A stretch of 11,860 nt of DNA from Candidatus Avipropionibacterium avicola (GTDB lineage: Bacteria > Actinomycetota > Actinomycetes > Propionibacteriales > Propionibacteriaceae): the NCBI GenBank assembly GCA_018715445.1, contig DVLP01000018.1, positions 1 to 11,860 of the forward strand, written 5' to 3'. Within the stretch, counting starts at the first letter, position 1. Every line of letters begins with the position of its first letter. The translations under genes and the position numbers were made by a program. Under the pieces are notes generated by a model, which did no database searches, was not told the DNA's origin, and saw only the letters and a program-made list of their open reading frames with translations. This document shows positions 2,375 through 9,888 of this stretch, piece by piece.

Positions 2375-4027
2375 TCAGGCCGGCAGCTCCTCGAGGGCAG
2401 CCTGGTACTCCTCACGAACCTTGTCGCCACCGGCCTTGCGCCAACCGTCCACGGCTTCGGCCAACGCGCTGACCTGTGAGCGCCCGGTGATGACGTCGGA
2501 GACGGTGTCGGCGATCTTCTGGCTGGCGGCCGAGGTCCTGGACTCGGTCGGTGAGTACACGCCCTGGGTCGGATCGACGAGCTGGTTGTCGACATTGTCG
2601 CTCTGGTAGTCGTGCAGCATCTTCACCATGTCGGGGGCCCCGTTCTGGGCATAGAGCACATCCGGCCCGCCGGCGACAAATCTCAACGACATGCCGGTGA
2701 CCTCCGAGGAGCCCCGCTCGGTCAGCACCGGCTCACCGTCGGTGATGGTGTGGTCGTCCCCCTCGACCCCGTAGGTCCGCAGGAAGTTCTCCTCGCTGCC
2801 GAAGGGTGCTGAGCACCAGTCGATCACCCGCAGGCATTCCTTGACCCGCTCGACCTCGCCCTTCTTCACAAAGGTCAGGAAGTCCGTGGGTCCGAGCGTG
2901 TACTGCGCCCCCTTCCCCCCTTCAGCCAGGAAGGGCGACATCAGCCCCACATCGAAGTTGACCTCTCCGCGGACGGTGTAGCGGACGAAGTTGTCGCTGA
3001 ACAGCGCAATCGTGCCGTTGGCGAACAACGGCTCGACCTCGAGCGACGAGCCACCCACGTCCGGGTGCCACCATCCGTTCTTCCAGGTGTCGGCGATGTA
3101 GGCGATCGCTGCCTCCCACTCCTCGGTCTCGAAGTCGCGGGTCAACGCGCCGTCGCTCTCCTGGCGCCAGCCGTTGGGGACCGAGAACATCGGGAAGAAG
3201 AGGTGCTCCAGCCACGAACTGGTGGCCGCCATGGCATACCGCCGACCGGGGCCGTTGGTGACGGCCTTGCAGAGCTCCTCGAACTCCTCCTTGTTGGTCG
3301 GCTCGGGATTGGCGCCGGCCTCCTCGATGATGTCAGGACGGGTGAAGATCGGACCTGCCGTACGGATCCTCAGCGTCGGGGTGGCGTGGATCTTGCCCGC
3401 CACCACGGCAGCCTCCCAGGCCTGCTGCGGCAGACGGGCCAGGTTGGGATAGTCCGCGACAGCGCCACCGGACAGCAGCTCGGTGAGGTCGGCGAACTTG
3501 TCCTGGACCACCGATTCGTAGCCCCGCAGTCGCCACGCCGAGGCCGTGTGCATCGTCACGATGTCCGGGATGTCGTTGCCGGTGAGCATCGCGGCCAGCT
3601 TGGTGTCGAAGTCGGTCGGGACCAGGGTCGGTTTGAGGTTGACGTTCAGTGCCTCGTTGATCGCCTGCCAGTAAGCGTTCCGCTTCACCGCCGGCGGTGG
3701 CGGGCTGTAGGTGATGACGAAGACACTCAGGTCACCGCCGGTCCCGACATCGCCGTCGACCGTCGTCACCCGGTCGGCCCCGTCGGGATAGCCGAAGTAA
3801 CCGGGGGCGATCAGCGAGTCGAGGTCACCGGGCAGATCCGGAGACACCTCGGGGAAGGCAATGTGGTCCGGCAGGACCGAGGTGTCACCACCTCCCCCGG
3901 TCTGCGGGCGATCCTGACTGCTGCCACCGCAACCGGCCAGCCCGGCCCCGGTCGCCGCGGCGGCCAGACCTCCCAGTGCCAGCAGCGATCGACGGTTCAT
4001 CGTCATGGACGTGGTCGTTGTCATCAT
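2375..4027 (-). CDS. ABC transporter solute-binding lipoprotein (LplA/YtcQ-like), Tat-exported
   Basis: This 550-aa protein is the extracytoplasmic sugar receptor of a CUT1-type importer. Its N-terminus carries a twin-arginine signal (NRRSLLALGG, residues 11-20) and a lipobox LAGC with the lipidated cysteine at C33. The mature protein is acidic and mixed alpha/beta, with aromatic-rich blocks (for example WKNGWWHPDV and VIDWCSAPFGSEEN) typical of large family-1 oligosaccharide-binding proteins. It exceeds the common 420-aa receptors, as LplA/YtcQ homologues do. The start is ambiguous: ATGs at 4027 and 4024 follow GAGAGGA at 3 and 6 nt, so the second has better spacing, and a third Met precedes the RR motif. 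It is the last gene of the operon, 39 bp after the second permease. The oligosaccharide specificity cannot be read from the sequence. Confidence 0.9.
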   Translation of the reverse strand: MMTTTTSMTMNRRSLLALGGLAAAATGAGLAGCGGSSQDRPQTGGGGDTSVLPDHIAFPEVSPDLPGDLDSLIAPGYFGYPDGADRVTTVDGDVGTGGDLSVFVITYSPPPPAVKRNAYWQAINEALNVNLKPTLVPTDFDTKLAAMLTGNDIPDIVTMHTASAWRLRGYESVVQDKFADLTELLSGGAVADYPNLARLPQQAWEAAVVAGKIHATPTLRIRTAGPIFTRPDIIEEAGANPEPTNKEEFEELCKAVTNGPGRRYAMAATSSWLEHLFFPMFSVPNGWRQESDGALTRDFETEEWEAAIAYIADTWKNGWWHPDVGGSSLEVEPLFANGTIALFSDNFVRYTVRGEVNFDVGLMSPFLAEGGKGAQYTLGPTDFLTFVKKGEVERVKECLRVIDWCSAPFGSEENFLRTYGVEGDDHTITDGEPVLTERGSSEVTGMSLRFVAGGPDVLYAQNGAPDMVKMLHDYQSDNVDNQLVDPTQGVYSPTESRTSAASQKIADTVSDVITGRSQVSALAEAVDGWRKAGGDKVREEYQAALEELPA

Positions 4028-4066: not shown

Positions 4067-4960
4067 TCATCCCTTGACAGCCCCGGTGAGCACCCCGCTG
4101 CGGAAGTGCCGTTGGATGAAGGGGTAGACACAGGCGATCGGGATGATCGCCAGCACGACGACCGCCATCTGGAGCGACTGGGCCGGAGGCAGCTCCCCGA
4201 CCTCCGCAGCCTCCTTGGCCAACGGAGTCCCCTGCAGGACATAGGTGCGCAGCACCAACTGGAGCGGCCACTTGGCCGAGTCGTTCAGGTACAGCAGTGC
4301 GCTGAAGAAGGCGTTCCAGTAGCCGACCGCATAGAAGAGTCCGACCACCGCCACCACCGCCTTGGACAGGGGCAGCACGATCTGCAGCAGGACGCGCCAC
4401 TCCCCGGCCCCGTCGATCCGGGCACTGTCGAGAAGCTCACCGGGGACGCCCTGGAAGAAGCCTCGGATGATCACCAGGTTGAAGGCGCTGATCGCCGTCG
4501 GCAGGATGAGGGACCAGTAGCTGTCGAGCAGGTTGAGCTCCTTCACCATCAGGTACACCGGGATCATCCCCGGCGTGAACAGGAAGGTGAACAGGACCAT
4601 CATCAACAAGAACCGTTGCCCGATCATCTGGCGGCGGGTGAGCGCATAGGCCGCCAGCACCGTCGAGGAGAGCGAAACGGCGGTCCCGACCAGGGTGACC
4701 CCGACGCTGACCAGGATCGCTCGGGTCACCACCCCACCGGCCAACACCGATCGGTACGCCTCCAGGGTCGGCTCCCGAGGGATCAGGACATAGCCGCCGG
4801 CTCGATCGATCTCTGCCTGCGAAGCCAGACTCGTCGACACCACGACCAACATGGGGACCACGACCACAGCGACGATCAGCAGCAGCGTGACGGCCTTCAA
4901 CAGCTGCGTCAGCCAAGTCGGACGCTCCGCCCACACCGGGCGCTCATTCCTACGCGTCAC
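4067..4960 (-). CDS. Carbohydrate ABC transporter permease, LplC/YtcP (MalG) type
   Basis: This 297-aa inner-membrane subunit has about six hydrophobic segments: approximately residues 22-42, 80-104, 116-137, 148-166, 200-222 and a last one before the C-terminal PFIQRHF block. The cytoplasmic EAA loop, which docks the ATPase, is visible at about 175-197 (ELLDSARIDGAGEWRVL... through VLPLSK). The ending in FRSGVLTGAVKG matches the MalG-type C-terminus of this family. Translation starts at GTG 4960, with GGGGGTG 8 nt upstream. The first 11 bp overlap the 3' end of the preceding permease gene, which indicates translational coupling and a heterodimeric channel. The binding protein follows after 39 bp. 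No ATPase gene is linked. Confidence 0.93.
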   Translation of the reverse strand: MTRRNERPVWAERPTWLTQLLKAVTLLLIVAVVVVPMLVVVSTSLASQAEIDRAGGYVLIPREPTLEAYRSVLAGGVVTRAILVSVGVTLVGTAVSLSSTVLAAYALTRRQMIGQRFLLMMVLFTFLFTPGMIPVYLMVKELNLLDSYWSLILPTAISAFNLVIIRGFFQGVPGELLDSARIDGAGEWRVLLQIVLPLSKAVVAVVGLFYAVGYWNAFFSALLYLNDSAKWPLQLVLRTYVLQGTPLAKEAAEVGELPPAQSLQMAVVVLAIIPIACVYPFIQRHFRSGVLTGAVKG

Positions 4961-5891
4961 GCGAGTACACCCCCGCTTCGCCGAGCAGGTGTGCGGCCTT
5001 GTTGGCGGCCAGGATCAGGGCCAGGCCCACGACGCCCTTGAGCAGACCCGCCGCGACGCCGATGCTCCAGTCGCCGTTGACCACACCACGGAAGTAGACA
5101 TAGGTGTCCAACACCTCGGCCGCCGCCGGTCCCACATTGTCGCGCTGCAGCAGGAGTTGCTCGAATCCCACGCTGAGCGAGGTCCCGAGCTGCATGATCA
5201 GCAGCAGCACGATGATGGGACGCACACCGGGCAGGGTGATGTGCCAGGTACGACGCCAGGCGCTGGCCCCGTCGACCGCGGCCGACTCGTACAGGGAGTG
5301 GTCGATGTTGGACAGCGCGGCCAGGAAGATGATCGTGCCCCACCCGGCGTCCTTCCAGACACCCTGCCCGACGACCAGGAGCTTGAAGGTCTCGGGGATC
5401 CCCATGATGTTGATCGGTCCCCCACCCAAGCTCTGGACCACATCGGCGGTCAGCCCGGTCCCACCGAGCATCCGCTCGAAGATGGCCACCACGATCACCC
5501 AGGACAGGAAGTGCGGGAGGTAGATGACCGACTGGACGAATCCTCGGATGTACGGAGACAGCACGCTGTGCAACAACAGTGCCAGGAGGATCGGGACGGG
5601 GAAGGAGAAGAGCAGTTGGAGGGCCGTGATCTGCAAGGTGTTGACCAGTGCCCGCCAGAAGTCCGGGTCGGAGAACAGGGTGTGGAAGTTCTGCAGACCG
5701 ACCCAGGTCGTCTCGCTCCAGCGCAGGTAGGGGATGTAGTCCATGAAGGCGACCACATTGCCCACCAGCGGGGCGTAGACGAAGAGCACGAGCAGCACAC
5801 AGGTGGGCACGACCATGACCAGCAACGAGGCGTCGCGGCGCACACGCCCCCACACACCCAAGCGGGGTGCGGCCGTCCTCACGCTGTGCAT
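4950..5891 (-). CDS. Carbohydrate ABC transporter permease, LplB/YteP (MalF) type
   Basis: This 313-aa inner-membrane permease is the first channel subunit. Hydrophobic segments occur at about residues 22-45, 83-112, 125-141, 170-195, 224-242 and near the C-terminus. The EAA loop is at about 201-222 (YESAAVDGASAWRRTWHITLP). The short N-terminus before the first helix matches LplB/YteP rather than the extended MalF form. The ATG at 5891 is chosen because GGTGGAG lies just upstream; the frame stays open to 6005, but that extension overlaps the end of the preceding gene and is low-complexity. The start lies 10 bp after the stop of the unknown-function gene, and the 3' end overlaps the next permease by 11 bp, so the four genes form one tight operon. 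Confidence 0.93.
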   Translation of the reverse strand: MHSVRTAAPRLGVWGRVRRDASLLVMVVPTCVLLVLFVYAPLVGNVVAFMDYIPYLRWSETTWVGLQNFHTLFSDPDFWRALVNTLQITALQLLFSFPVPILLALLLHSVLSPYIRGFVQSVIYLPHFLSWVIVVAIFERMLGGTGLTADVVQSLGGGPINIMGIPETFKLLVVGQGVWKDAGWGTIIFLAALSNIDHSLYESAAVDGASAWRRTWHITLPGVRPIIVLLLIMQLGTSLSVGFEQLLLQRDNVGPAAAEVLDTYVYFRGVVNGDWSIGVAAGLLKGVVGLALILAANKAAHLLGEAGVYSRDA

Positions 5892-5901
5892 CAACTCCAC
5901 C

Positions 5902-7296
5902 TCAGGTGTAGACGAACTGGGCCGTGGCGGTGCCTGACACCGAGGGGACGAGTCGGATCCAGTGCGCGCTGAAGCCGGTCGGGAAGACCTCGCTGGCACA
6001 GCCACCCGGCTCGACGGTCAGCTCGCTGTGGCGGGCCCACCGTCCGGTGCCGGTGACGTCAATCTCCACCGTGACGTCCAGGCGATCCTCGCCGTCATTG
6101 GTCAGGTGCAGGCACTTGTGCTCGAACCCGGTCATCAGGTACGGATCGGACGCCACGCCGGCCTCCACCGCTGACTCCCACCACGGACCACCCCAGCCCT
6201 GCGGCTTGCCCCACTGCCACAGGTCATCGGTCTTGCCGAACCAGAGGTTCGCCTGCGGTTGGCCCGCCACCGGGTTGTTGTCGTTCAGCGGAGTGGTCTG
6301 GTCCCCCGCCATCACCAGCAGTCCGTTCCAGGAGCAGAAGTCGCCCACCACCCGCAGGTGCGAGGCCACCGGCCTGATCCCCCAGACCGCATCCGCGTAG
6401 GTGATCGACGGCAGCTCGTAGAACATCCCGCTGGCGTCCATCAACAGCCGCTCCGACTCCACCTCCCGGATCCGTGGCCATTCGGTGGTGAAGGCGTGGT
6501 CCTGGGTGTGGGTCGACTTCGGCAGGCGATACTGACGCCAGCCGGTGGTCGGCAGGTGCACCCACAGCAGCGCAGAGGCCCTGTCCTGCCCGACGGCGAA
6601 CAGGGCGTCACCCATGCCGTTGGCGGTGGCCAGCGTGTTGAACTGGGTGCGGGCCAGCGTGCGCCACTGCTCACCGTCCCACTCGGCGAGGCGGCCCTCG
6701 CTCTCACCGGTCCAGAAGTCGTCGTGGTAGTAGGAGTTGTTGACCACGACCACGCGACCGTTGCTGGTGCAGATGTCCTTGAAGTGGGGATAGCCGTGCA
6801 CCTGCAGGACGTCCAGCAGGTCGAAGAGCTGGGTGACCTCCAGGGTGTGGACGTCGACCTCGCAGAACTCACCCTCCATGCCGAGCATGTAGACCTTGTT
6901 GGCCGGGTCGTCCAGATGACGGGCGGTCCCGGTGATCCGGATGTCGACCAGATCGTCGATCGTCCGGACGGTGCCGTCGACATCGATCACGTGCGGCCCG
7001 ATGAACAGTTGCGAGGTCTCCTTGTGCACCAGTCGGTTGGCGTAGGTGCCGACCACGCTCTCGGGATGCTTGGTCACCTGCAGGTCGTCGTCAATGCTGA
7101 ACAGGCCCGTCCCGTCACCGGTCGGCGACTTGTGCGCCACGTAGGTCACGAACCACAACTTGTCCGCCCACGGCATCAACGCGCCGATGCCGGTCTCCGA
7201 TCGTCGTGGCAGGTGCTTGGCCTTCACGGCCAGACTCGGCACCACGCCACTGATCGCCACAGGTCCACTGATTCCCGCAGGTTGCCCCAATGCCAT
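5902..7296 (-). CDS. Conserved cytoplasmic protein of unknown function, beta-propeller-like, first gene of sugar-uptake operon
   Basis: This protein is 464 aa from ATG 7296. There is no signal peptide, lipobox or membrane segment, so it should be cytoplasmic. I do not recognise a named family, although I recall similar hypothetical proteins in polysaccharide-degrading bacteria. It is rich in short beta-strand units with Trp/Gly turns and alternating hydrophobics (about 38-52, 124-150, 170-215, 228-260, 283-296), which suggests a beta-propeller. Conspicuous blocks are HTQDHAFTTEWPRIREVE (263-280), GDFCSWNGLLVMAGDQTTP (318-336), LWFGKTDDLWQWGKPQGWGG (351-370) and SDPYLMTGF (383-391). The last 70 residues look like a beta-sandwich. 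The many His, Asp, Glu and Trp residues would suit a carbohydrate-active site. Its position directly before two permeases and a binding protein suggests that it processes the imported sugar. No clear Shine-Dalgarno precedes the chosen start; the frame is open to 7557, but that overlaps the regulator gene. Function is not assigned. Confidence 0.8.
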   Translation of the reverse strand: MALGQPAGISGPVAISGVVPSLAVKAKHLPRRSETGIGALMPWADKLWFVTYVAHKSPTGDGTGLFSIDDDLQVTKHPESVVGTYANRLVHKETSQLFIGPHVIDVDGTVRTIDDLVDIRITGTARHLDDPANKVYMLGMEGEFCEVDVHTLEVTQLFDLLDVLQVHGYPHFKDICTSNGRVVVVNNSYYHDDFWTGESEGRLAEWDGEQWRTLARTQFNTLATANGMGDALFAVGQDRASALLWVHLPTTGWRQYRLPKSTHTQDHAFTTEWPRIREVESERLLMDASGMFYELPSITYADAVWGIRPVASHLRVVGDFCSWNGLLVMAGDQTTPLNDNNPVAGQPQANLWFGKTDDLWQWGKPQGWGGPWWESAVEAGVASDPYLMTGFEHKCLHLTNDGEDRLDVTVEIDVTGTGRWARHSELTVEPGGCASEVFPTGFSAHWIRLVPSVSGTATAQFVYT

Positions 7297-7367: not shown

Positions 7368-7379
7368 CCATGCACATGG
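7368..7379. promoter_or_regulatory. Candidate operator, inverted repeat CCATG-2-CATGG
   Basis: CCATGCACATGG has perfect 5-bp arms around CA. It covers the expected -35 position of the regulator's own promoter, consistent with IclR-type autoregulation. Its role is inferred from position and symmetry only. Confidence 0.4.
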
Positions 7380-7392
7380 CGCTTGGTGCAGC

Positions 7393-7405: not shown

Positions 7406-8170
7406 ATGACGAGCATCCCCGGAGCCCAGTCGCTCAGCCGCGGCCTACGAGTGCTGACCACTCTCGTGCACGCCGACGGCCCGCTCACCGCGACCGAGAT
7501 CGCCCATCGCTGCCACTGCCACCAGACGACCGCCTCGCGCATCCTGGCGGCGCTCATCGAGGCCGGCTACGTCCGCAAGGTCAGCTATCGCGAGTTCGCC
7601 CCGGACTTCGGCCTGCTCGCCCTGGGCATCGAGGCCACTGGCCACTTTGACCTGATCTCCCTGCCGCGTCCGGCGCTCGATCGGTGTGCCGAGATCTGCG
7701 CACCGATGATGGTGTCGTTGTGCCTGATGTGGCGTGGCCAGCTGCTCTACTTCGACCAGTCCACTCGCGGCTTCGACACCCGGGTGTTCCAGGGCAAGGA
7801 CTACCCCATCCACCTGTCGTCGCCGGGGCTGCTGTTCATGACCGAGATGTCGCGGACCGAGGCACTGCAGATGCTGCGAGCCTCACGTCACAAGTTCGGC
7901 TGGCCCCGCACCACGGCATCGGTGCCCGAGACCGAGACGGAGACGCTGGACCATGCACTCCGCCTGGTGCGCAACGACACCCTCGTGCTCAAGGAGTGGG
8001 CCGAGCCCGGGCACATCACCGCAGCGGCCCGGCTGCCGGACCACCACGGTCACCCGTTGGCGCTGGCCATCGCCGGGCCCGCCGACATCTTCTCGGTGGA
8101 GACGTTGCGGATGCGGCTGCTGGCATGCCGTTCGCTCGTCCTGCCAGCACTGCCCGCTCCGAACGGGTAG
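7406..8170 (+). CDS. IclR-family transcriptional regulator
   Basis: This 254-aa protein has the usual IclR length. An N-terminal winged helix (about residues 5-60) contains the helix-turn-helix TATEIAHRCHCHQTTASRIL (28-47), followed by AALIEAGYVRK, the standard IclR wing entry. The remainder matches the IclR effector-binding domain; the FQGKDYPIHLSSPGLLFMTEM block corresponds to the family's small-molecule pocket entrance. The ATG at 7406 is chosen because the homology begins there with the PGAQSLSRGLRVL stretch; the frame is open further upstream, but that extension overlaps the divergent gene. It is transcribed away from the sugar-uptake operon and convergent with the second binding-protein gene, so it probably regulates one or both in response to a sugar-derived ligand. 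An oddity is the CHCH sequence (36-39) in the DNA-binding domain. Whether it represses or activates is unknown. Confidence 0.9.
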   Translation: MTSIPGAQSLSRGLRVLTTLVHADGPLTATEIAHRCHCHQTTASRILAALIEAGYVRKVSYREFAPDFGLLALGIEATGHFDLISLPRPALDRCAEICAPMMVSLCLMWRGQLLYFDQSTRGFDTRVFQGKDYPIHLSSPGLLFMTEMSRTEALQMLRASRHKFGWPRTTASVPETETETLDHALRLVRNDTLVLKEWAEPGHITAAARLPDHHGHPLALAIAGPADIFSVETLRMRLLACRSLVLPALPAPNG

Positions 8171-8196: not shown

Positions 8197-9822
8197 TCAG
8201 CCGCCGATCTCCATTCGGCGCTCGTGGGCCGCCTGGTAGGCCGCCAGGTAGTCGGGCATCCCCATCTGGTCGAACTTGGCGACGTAGTTGTCCCACTCCG
8301 ACAGCGGCAGCTGGCCGGTGATGAAGGCCGAGCGTGACTCGGTGGCGTGCTTGCTGATGTCGGTGCCGATCGACGAGAGCGTCGTGGACTCCTCGGAGGT
8401 GAAGGTGAAGGCCGACCACACCTCGTCCAAGGCGTACTGCTGCACCAGCTCAGCGCCCTCCACGGCCTGGGGGGTGTTCTCGACACCACGGAACCACTCA
8501 TCGGTGGCGCGGCCGGGGTAGCGTCCGCCGCCGTAGAGGGCGTGGGGCTGCAAACCCTCGCCGATCGAGCGACCTCCCGCGGTGATCTCGGGCATCAGCT
8601 CGTAGCGGCCGTCGACCTCGTGGAAGCTCACGCCCTCGACGCCCATGAAGAACATCCGGGCGCCCTCCTCGCTGAACCAGAAGTCCATCCAGCGGGCGAT
8701 CTCGACCGGATGCTCGGCCTTGTCGGTCATCGCGAACTGGCCGATACCGGCCACCTCGGAGCGGACGGCGTGCCACGGCGGGACGTCGTCGGAGGACTGC
8801 TTCTTCAGCGGTGCCAGCGCGACGTACTCCTCACCGACCTTGCCGAAGTAGCCGGCCGGTGTCTGGGTGGCGCAACTGGCCAACAGCCCGTCGGTGCCCA
8901 GGGTCTTGAACTTCAGCAGGTCGGTGTTGAACCCGTCCTCCATCAACAGACCCTTCTCGAAGAGTCGATGCAGGTAGGTCAACAGCTCGCGGTACCCGTC
9001 GGCGGTCGGGAAGTACCGCACCTTCTCGGTCTCGGGGTCCAGATCGACCAGTCCGACGTCGGGACCCTTGTTCCCGACCCCGAAAGTCCCGTAGAGACAG
9101 GGAATCGTGGTGCTGAAGGATCCAGAGTCGGCGTGCCCGATCGCACCGGCGCCGTCAGGGTCGGACCGCACCGCTTCCTCCAGGAAGGCCTCGAACTCGT
9201 CGAGGGTGGCGGGCACGTCCATCCCGAAGTCGTCCAACCAGTCCTGCCGGGCCCACAACTTGCTCGAGTACCGCATGCCCACGAAGTCCTTGTCGTAGAT
9301 CTGGGGCAGCGTGTAGATCTTCCCGTCCGGGAAGGTCAGGGCCTGGCGGATCGTGGGGTTCTCCTCCATGATCGCCGTGAGGTTGGGCATGTGCCGCTCG
9401 ATGAGATCGTCCAGCGGGACCAGCACGCCCTGTTCGCCGTACTTGGCGATGTCGCCGGCGCTGAGGCTGGTGCGGTAGAACACCTCCGGGTAGTCACCGC
9501 TGGCCAGGGCGAGGTTGCGCTTCTCCCCCACCCCCTCGAGGGGGACCAGGCCCCAGTCCAGGTGGATGTTGGTGATCTCCTCGGCCTTCTTGACCGCCGA
9601 GACCTCGTTCCAGTCGTCATTGGTGGTCGGCGGGTGACCGCTCATGAAGCGGAGGGTGGTCTTCTCCTTGACGATCGGATAGCCCTCGAGGTTGATGTTG
9701 GGATCCGGGTTGTCGATCTTCTCCTGGGTCTCACCGTCGGTACCGCCACTGCACGAGGCGAGGAATCCGGTACCGAGGACAGCGGCCGAAGCCAATGCCG
9801 TACGACGGGAGATGCTGGGCAC
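8197..9822 (-). CDS. Second ABC transporter solute-binding lipoprotein (LplA-like), Tat-exported
   Basis: This 541-aa protein starts at GTG 9822, preceded by GGAAGGA at 8 nt. The N-terminus has a twin-arginine motif SISRRTAL (residues 3-10), a short hydrophobic stretch and a lipobox LASC with the lipidated cysteine at C24. The mature part is an extracellular sugar-binding protein of the large LplA/YtcQ group: DFGMDVPATLDEFEAFLEEA and DGKIYTLPQIYDKDF are recognisable family stretches, and a WMDFWFSEEGARMFFMGVEG block lies in the C-terminal half. It is clearly diverged from the first binding protein, so the two probably bind different ligands or oligomer lengths. It is monocistronic: metG lies 114 bp upstream and the convergent regulator downstream. 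With no permease of its own, it may feed the nearby permease pair. The 21-residue N-terminal extension to 9885 is rejected because the ribosome binding site fits the GTG. Confidence 0.9.
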   Translation of the reverse strand: MPSISRRTALASAAVLGTGFLASCSGGTDGETQEKIDNPDPNINLEGYPIVKEKTTLRFMSGHPPTTNDDWNEVSAVKKAEEITNIHLDWGLVPLEGVGEKRNLALASGDYPEVFYRTSLSAGDIAKYGEQGVLVPLDDLIERHMPNLTAIMEENPTIRQALTFPDGKIYTLPQIYDKDFVGMRYSSKLWARQDWLDDFGMDVPATLDEFEAFLEEAVRSDPDGAGAIGHADSGSFSTTIPCLYGTFGVGNKGPDVGLVDLDPETEKVRYFPTADGYRELLTYLHRLFEKGLLMEDGFNTDLLKFKTLGTDGLLASCATQTPAGYFGKVGEEYVALAPLKKQSSDDVPPWHAVRSEVAGIGQFAMTDKAEHPVEIARWMDFWFSEEGARMFFMGVEGVSFHEVDGRYELMPEITAGGRSIGEGLQPHALYGGGRYPGRATDEWFRGVENTPQAVEGAELVQQYALDEVWSAFTFTSEESTTLSSIGTDISKHATESRSAFITGQLPLSEWDNYVAKFDQMGMPDYLAAYQAAHERRMEIGG

Positions 9823-9830
9823 GATCAGGG

Positions 9831-9837
9831 TCCTTCC
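9831..9837 (-). promoter_or_regulatory. Ribosome binding site deciding the GTG start of the second binding protein
   Basis: On the minus strand GGAAGGA ends 8 nt before GTG 9822. This start places the twin-arginine motif at residues 6-7, as expected for a Tat signal, whereas an upstream start would bury it behind an arginine- and cysteine-rich extension. Confidence 0.75.
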
Positions 9838-9888
9838 GTGGGGGCACCTGGTGAACCGATCCAGGCGGCGGCAGCAATCGCCCACGAC

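Follow-up and report, generated by a model that had tools for sequence, protein, structure and literature searches.

A widespread protein with a predicted seven-bladed beta-propeller, linked to sugar-uptake genes and a PF12831 flavoprotein

The window analyzed here, a stretch of 11,860 nucleotides from Candidatus Avipropionibacterium avicola, carries a sugar-uptake locus that includes a gene for a 464-amino-acid protein of no named family, the subject of this study. We refer to it as the propeller protein, after the fold of its structure model. Its open reading frame (ORF) runs on the minus strand from an ATG at 7296 to a stop at 5902 (464 codons), and close homologues have a similar start point, a short distance ahead of an ISGV(x)P motif. 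The genes of the locus are as follows.

5902..7296, minus strand: propeller protein of 464 amino acids, cytoplasmic (called from the ORF and its homologues; no family match)
4950..5891, minus strand: first CUT1-type ATP-binding cassette (ABC) permease (BPD_transp_1, 1.3e-15; the longest ORF is 4950-6005, and the start at 5891 was read from the translation)
4067..4960, minus strand: second CUT1-type ABC permease (BPD_transp_1, 1.8e-11)
2375..4027, minus strand: solute-binding protein (SBP_bac_1, 2.1e-7)
7406..8170, plus strand: divergent IclR-type regulator (HTH_IclR, 1.8e-13; the longest ORF starts from 7160, the likely start is 7406)
8197..9885, minus strand: second solute-binding protein, beyond the IclR gene (SBP_bac_1, 2.1e-12)

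Nine window proteins were scanned against Pfam: Fur, a catalase, two SBP_bac_1 proteins, two BPD_transp_1 permeases, IclR, MetG and the propeller protein. MetG frames the locus on one side, and catalase and Fur frame it on the other. The second permease resembles the UgpE, GlcU and MalG models, all below their cut-offs. One permease pair is flanked by two different solute-binding proteins (2375-4027 and 8197-9885). No ATPase was found among the nine proteins, and the importer is likely to share one encoded elsewhere. The locus has the binding protein and two permeases of CUT1 operons of the LplABC type, but it contains no Pfam-recognizable hydrolase, lyase or phosphorylase, and the unnamed propeller stands in that place. 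The source genome (3.25 Mb in 469 contigs) contains a single match to the propeller protein.

An earlier note on this DNA had given the gap between the gene and the permeases as 10 bp, which is exact (propeller stop at 5902, permease ATG at 5891), and had read the protein as lacking an export signal; no signal peptide is present in it. The Trp/His/Asp blocks that the note placed at residues 263-280, 351-370 and 383-391 are there, within conserved stretches, and its statement that the operon lacks any recognizable sugar enzyme holds for the nine proteins scanned.

Family, fold and conserved residues

The window protein gave zero matches in Pfam, NCBIfam, PHROGs and PADLOC at E ≤ 1. Among PDB sequences there was no match at E ≤ 10, using either the single sequence or a profile of 90 members. 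Homologues are far more numerous than chance would give: 4068 of the 8000 candidates scored reached E ≤ 1e-3, and the 120 homologues listed are 64-100% identical to the query across 91-100% of its length, with readable source names of hypothetical or uncharacterized protein. About 65% identity is retained between phyla, from actinobacteria to Omnitrophota, and an alignment of 25 sequences, including Kribbella, Isoptericola, Microlunatus, Puniceicoccus and Omnitrophota, has a mean column identity of 70%.

A scan of one genome per species yielded 63 loci, which span Actinobacteria (Kribbella and others), Bacillota (Paenibacillus and others), Chloroflexi, Bacteroidetes, Planctomycetota, Verrucomicrobia, Lentisphaerae, Armatimonadetes and others. 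The gene is patchy, being found in one of 396 sampled genomes of the phylum (the window's own) and in 30 of 293 sampled genomes of the order. At several loci, mostly in Bacteroidetes, a paralogue of 824-872 amino acids, made up of a full copy with a second C-terminal half after it, lies beside the short form:

L035, 4350-6968
L038, 16438-19011
L042, 11393-13873
L043, 3293-5770
L048, 9133-11643
L061, 12863-15337

This long subfamily is also unnamed. A search started from a long Bacteroidetes member returned 7244 matches (of 8000 candidates scored), and one started from a short member returned 2576; these matches may overlap with the set of 4068. In the open-licence part of PubMed Central, searched by context words since the family is nameless, no paper could be linked to the propeller family. 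No library searched here assigns the family, the residues invariant in it or its association with a PF12831 flavoprotein (described below); the propeller fold, and the concept of an importer operon with a dedicated enzyme, are already known.

The predicted structure of the window protein has a predicted local distance difference test score (pLDDT) of 93.3 and a predicted template modeling score (pTM) of 0.92. An earlier model built from 25 close homologues had a pLDDT of 71, and neither it nor its fold search was used. The model contains two domains, as the earlier note had guessed in describing a beta-propeller with a beta-sandwich tail:

6214..7263, minus strand: seven-bladed beta-propeller domain, residues ~12-361
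5908..6198, minus strand: C-terminal beta-sandwich, residues 367-463 (DSSP of the model)

The sandwich is weakly matched by CBM_35_2 in 10 and by F5_F8_type_C in 5 of the 90 members (E ≤ 0.1), the window protein not being among them. Fold searches did not separate enzyme propellers from scaffold propellers. GH43- and GH32-type enzymes appear in the Foldseek results at template modeling scores (TM-scores) of ~0.3 or less, and because of these low scores nothing was drawn from them. Among the 50 fold matches listed, virginiamycin B lyase is present, and structures of the polysaccharide lyase families PL24, PL25 and PL42 are absent, an absence that does not exclude them.

Fourteen residues (R88, H91, R120, E141, E146, H171, K173, N187, S241, E272, W273, R275, R277 and D319) are identical in every covering sequence among the 90 members, which comprise 75 short and 15 long forms, three of the long ones being fragments. 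They hold down to members of 33% identity, and D238 is kept in 89 of the 90. The 14 residues and D238 are likewise all present at each of 28 loci sampled in the window's order, two of which had apparently been seen before. Three short segments carry eight of these residues:

6466..6483, minus strand: residues 272-277 (EWPRIR), with invariant E272, W273, R275 and R277 (90/90 members, 28/28 order loci)
6778..6786, minus strand: residues 171-173 (HFK), with H171 and K173 invariant, where the inner strand of blade 4 begins (89/90, one gap)
7024..7035, minus strand: residues 88-91, with invariant R88 and H91, in the inner strand of blade 2 (88/90, two gaps)

Polar residues with a weighted conservation of at least 0.93, gaps being counted against the column, occupy 7 of 93 positions in the loops of the top face and none of 73 in those of the bottom face (Fisher p = 0.016), with the faces and the pocket inferred from the strand order in the model. 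Averaged over each face, conservation differs only slightly (permutation p = 0.08, with loop 332-350 omitted). H91, H127, H171, R88, R120, R275, R277, D238 and D319 are conserved in the family and may, by residue type, be candidate counterparts of the His, Asp and Arg of PL42, whose His-His-Asp triad acts with Arg and Tyr around the uronate (PMC10951650).

Linkage to importer genes and a flavoprotein

We compared 25 loci from the window's order with 20 arbitrary control windows, set at round coordinates in 16 of the genomes that supplied those loci. Genes at the loci were called by codon-usage scripts, and the counts include loci truncated by a contig end. The neighbor profiles were built from the gene clusters of the 63 loci and the window proteins, so that counts over the 63 loci are partly circular; the 25 order loci and 20 control windows stood outside profile building, except that L113 and L116 are apparently identical to L002 and L003.

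A CUT1 permease pair with a binding protein lay within 5 kb of the propeller gene at 20 of the 25 order loci. In the control windows, a CUT1 permease was found in 0/20, the flavoprotein in 0/20 and a weak binding-protein match in 1/20, giving p = 1.7e-8 for enrichment of the CUT1 pair. These results indicate that, in the window's order, the gene is repeatedly linked to sugar-uptake genes beyond chance. Over the 63 loci, the same distance held an importer component at 24, a CUT1 pair at 11, any CUT1 permease at 15, SusC/D at 8, the flavoprotein at 13 and a sulfatase at 12, most of the sulfatase loci being from Bacteroidetes. The partners depend on the clade: CUT1 importers accompany the gene in Gram-positives and Chloroflexi, and SusC/D and sulfatases accompany it in Bacteroidetes.

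Signal peptides, judged by eye from the N-termini, follow a similar division. They are absent from members from Gram-positives, Chloroflexi and most loci of the Planctomycetes-Verrucomicrobia-Chlamydiae (PVC) type. Bacteroidetes members possess them, as do certain members from Planctomycetota and other groups, and a lipobox-like cysteine occurs in part of these. Export status thus matches the site where the sugar would be met, and this distribution suggests that the propeller acts in the cell together with ABC import and in the envelope together with SusC/D.

Other neighbors were seen at individual loci. Where importers are not adjacent, URO-D-like proteins adjoin the propeller (L012, 7950-8993; L055, 7565-8635; neighbors in L012, L055 and L062), a call made by Pfam for L012 and by cluster or by eye for the others. 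Right-handed beta-helix proteins lie near the propeller in two Paenibacillus loci (L030, 7289-9001, a weak match just under the Pfam cut-off; L031, 6749-8458, of the same cluster), and another lies near the flavoprotein in a genome of the window's genus (L170, 10333-12279; PF12708, 4e-20). The beta-helix neighbors hint at plant sugars. Taken across phyla, the sulfatase, beta-helix, URO-D-like and Gfo/Idh neighbors disagree, and no substrate is named here.

A flavin adenine dinucleotide (FAD)-dependent oxidoreductase of family PF12831 recurs near the propeller across phyla. The two genes were surveyed in 293 genomes of the order each, taken as the same draw: the flavoprotein was present in all 30 genomes with the propeller (at least 981 bits) and in 13 of 263 without it (E ≤ 1e-150). 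The corresponding p-value is 4e-31 with kinship ignored; counted by genus, the co-occurrence is 5/5 versus 4/32 (p = 3e-4). The flavoprotein gene lies within 5 kb of the propeller at 19 of the 25 order loci. In the window's genome it lies on another contig (C421), directly behind another IclR-type regulator. The flavoprotein is the best-supported and most constant partner of the propeller.

One genus (g27) has two propeller types, B (~51-54% identical to the window protein) and A (76-78%). Type B is encoded inside an operon with the order binding protein, permease, permease, B, RpiR and flavoprotein, the RpiR gene having been identified by eye at a small number of loci, with Pfam confirmation in L173, and type A is encoded elsewhere, with an IclR gene. 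In 20 g27 genomes, B stands with the importer and the flavoprotein. Five genomes lack B at this place, with the importer genes and the flavoprotein otherwise in place; RpiR was called in four of these five, and the fifth has a fitting gap of 0.9 kb. Type A was found elsewhere in all five B-less genomes, as against 1 of the 20 that bear B (p = 1.1e-4), and every sampled g27 genome with an RpiR-type operon has a propeller. In another pair of g27 genomes (G033 and G042), neither of which has a propeller, the flavoprotein gene belongs to a different operon that contains SDR and amidohydrolase genes; once this pair is counted as propeller-less, the swap has p = 1.4e-3. This pattern is as expected if types A and B do the same job in one pathway.

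The flavoprotein is found without the propeller in further operons as well, so the propeller seems to depend on the flavoprotein and not the reverse. At two such loci (L158 and L159), the propeller-less flavoprotein is encoded behind an importer of the same type and is accompanied by SDR, amidohydrolase and Gfo/Idh/MocA genes, which suggests a second pathway using the same class of flavoprotein. In a Caldicoprobacter locus (L060), two different flavoproteins of the same cluster stand in a row behind the importer and the propeller (11404-12681 and 12729-14459), PF12831 being shown for the first.

Proposed role and alternative explanations

We tentatively favor the explanation that the family is a new propeller enzyme, probably glycoside-cleaving, that works with the PF12831 flavoprotein. 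An oligosaccharide or glycoside would be imported by the neighboring CUT1 system, or by SusC/D in Bacteroidetes, where the propeller carries an export signal, and would then be processed jointly by the propeller protein and the flavoprotein. The flavoprotein would most likely oxidize (or reduce) the sugar, either preparing or finishing the job, and the propeller would use its invariant His/Arg/Lys/Glu set to cleave the glycosidic bond, through either beta-elimination or hydrolysis, at the upper end of the central channel. The parts of this proposal differ in strength. The propeller very probably acts in one pathway with the flavoprotein, and it is probably catalytic. Whether its target is a glycosidic bond is evenly balanced; cleavage by elimination on an oxidized sugar is doubtful, and the extension to a novel class of enzymes that cleave glycosides, in which an eliminase with a seven-bladed propeller would act on PF12831-oxidized sugars, is rather speculative. 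The earlier note had suggested an enzyme from a family without assigned activity. This idea is supported by the invariant residues, the confident propeller model and the repeated linkage to uptake systems and the flavoprotein, whereas the narrower idea of a hydrolase acting on the imported sugar remains conjecture; of the two roles that the note considered, pure sugar binding with no enzymatic activity is the less likely.

Several observations weigh against this proposal. The tie to LplABC-type importers that the earlier note had expected is firm in the window's order (20/25 versus 0/20 controls) and loose over all phyla (11/63 loci); at 15 loci mostly from PVC and Omnitrophota (L007-L021), neither a CUT1 or SusC/D importer nor the flavoprotein was found within 5 kb (0/15 each), in a set where only 2 of 15 loci have full flanks and other importer types were not sought. 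Of the six type-A loci in the related genus, five have an IclR gene and no importer within 5 kb. In groups other than the order, the flavoprotein was present in 28 of 29 propeller-bearing genomes (from 30 loci picked out of the 63), and the 29th (L049) has a flavoprotein fragment of 209 bits beside the propeller; this figure is of little weight because 70 of 99 genomes of one control family carry the flavoprotein anyway. Co-occurrence by itself does not establish that the propeller needs the flavoprotein, and kinship within genus g27 weakens the p-values of the swap.

One functional parallel is the cleavage of glycosides by oxidation followed by elimination, as outlined in the excerpts of PMC10628242 for a C3-glycoside oxidoreductase working with the beta-eliminases AtOGE or PuCGE. 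In such systems, as far as the excerpts of PMC10628242 and PMC10646112 go, a redox enzyme is combined with a second, glycoside-cleaving enzyme, to which the flavoprotein and the propeller can be likened. The eliminases there are Mn2+ triosephosphate isomerase (TIM) barrels (PMC10628242, in part), whereas here the candidate is a propeller, and the flavo-oxidases described in the excerpts of PMC10646112 belong to the GMC superfamily, unlike the PF12831 flavoprotein. Judging from the model, a fold of this type is also found in two eliminases, virginiamycin B lyase and the PL42 lyase. Virginiamycin B (streptogramin B) lyase (Vgb; PDB 2z2n and 2qc5) has the seven-bladed propeller in common with the model, but at 9-11% identity it is tied with unrelated WD40 propellers, the matched region stops before the C-terminal sandwich, and the window protein has no Pfam or NCBIfam family match at E ≤ 1 that would join the two.

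A catalytic domain with seven blades is also found in PL24 and PL25, and the propeller could be a polysaccharide-lyase-like enzyme that requires no prior oxidation. Arg, His and Lys would neutralize a uronate or sulfate-bearing sugar and a His/Tyr pair would abstract the proton, as in PL24, PL25 and PL42, with the flavoprotein acting later on the unsaturated product. An anionic sugar would fit well with the invariant Arg, Lys and His close to the upper end of the channel, and sulfatases stand at the 12 mostly Bacteroidetes loci counted above. PL42 (FoRham1) has the same seven-bladed fold with its active site on one face, and performs the chemistry using one His as the base together with another His, Asp, Tyr and Arg, according to the excerpts of PMC10951650; no flavoprotein partner is described in those excerpts, unlike the situation in this family. 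The fold is shared with the window protein model, but sequence similarity to PL24, PL25 or PL42 was not detectable in Pfam (window protein, E ≤ 1) or in PDB sequences (90-member profile, E ≤ 10), and a sulfatase was found within 5 kb at no importer-bearing Gram-positive locus. We consider this explanation fairly unlikely.

The pairing of a flavoprotein and a beta-propeller protein in one operon would also suit a sugar lactonase or a related hydrolase or isomerase, the flavoprotein making a lactone (or keto-sugar) that the propeller opens or rearranges. Beta-propeller lactonases exist, such as SMP-30 and 6-phosphogluconolactonase. No Pfam lactonase (SMP-30 and PF10282 included) matched the window protein at E ≤ 1, and none was among the 19 families matched by the 90 members at E ≤ 0.1; the SusC/D and sulfatase neighbors in Bacteroidetes suggest a substrate that is polymeric or decorated. 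A lactonase is unlikely. Propellers are often scaffolds, as the fold matches illustrate, some members have a C-terminal sandwich similar to carbohydrate-binding modules, and regulators are often nearby, all of which would fit a non-catalytic protein that retains the imported sugar until the flavoprotein acts on it or serves as a sugar sensor for the IclR or RpiR regulator. Identity of ~65% between phyla is very strong for a scaffold, as are invariant His, Lys, Arg and Glu, and the Bacteroidetes versions carry export signals that would place them away from cytoplasmic regulators; such a role is quite improbable.

Carotenoid cleavage oxygenases (RPE65, PF03055) have a propeller fold with four Fe-binding His on the inner ring, and some members show a short local resemblance to them: at E ≤ 0.1, PF03055 matched 6 of the 90, with a best value of 8e-4 and without the window protein among them, and in a search of 29 genomes four matches fell inside propeller genes by their coordinates. 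These four lie within positions 64-166 of the 469-position profile and score 13.1-18 bits against a family cut-off of 27, and the sole match above it (38 bits) is a separate protein outside the family. With the remaining matches short and sub-threshold, kinship with these oxygenases was dropped, and an Fe(II) propeller dioxygenase is a highly improbable explanation.

Thousands of closely similar, nameless proteins from many phyla belong to this family, and many of their genes lie within sugar-uptake loci. If the propeller is an enzyme, it would explain those loci, name the missing activity and add to glycan annotation a family with a flavoprotein partner; since the operon is recognizable in genomes, the frequency of non-hydrolytic glycan cleavage would become testable. 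If the favored proposal is true down to its chemistry, it would be a further, fold-unrelated route to glycoside breakage by oxidation and elimination, in a class spread over Actinobacteria, Bacillota, Chloroflexi, Bacteroidetes and PVC that could stand in for known carbohydrate-active enzymes (CAZymes) in whole sugar-uptake loci.

Regulation and other features of the window

The IclR gene and the propeller gene are separated by an intergenic gap of 109 bp. An IclR gene lies within 5 kb at all six of the order loci (out of 25) with a 76-78% identical propeller. The gap in the window contains one candidate element:

7370..7382, plus strand: 13-bp word ATGCACATGGCGC, in the gap between the IclR and propeller genes

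The pattern ATGCRCATGGCGC has two matches in the genome, one in this gap and one upstream of the IclR-flavoprotein pair on contig C421 (L078), and its backward-read control has one. The word was found by comparing these two places, so both matches arise by construction, and a rough hand estimate puts the chance of such a word at about 1 in 10. The 13-bp word may possibly be a shared operator of the two IclR loci, as a weak suggestion from sequence comparison.

At the edge of the window, a gene for a Fur-family regulator (292-768) is followed by the catalase gene (734-2308), an ordinary oxidative-stress pair.

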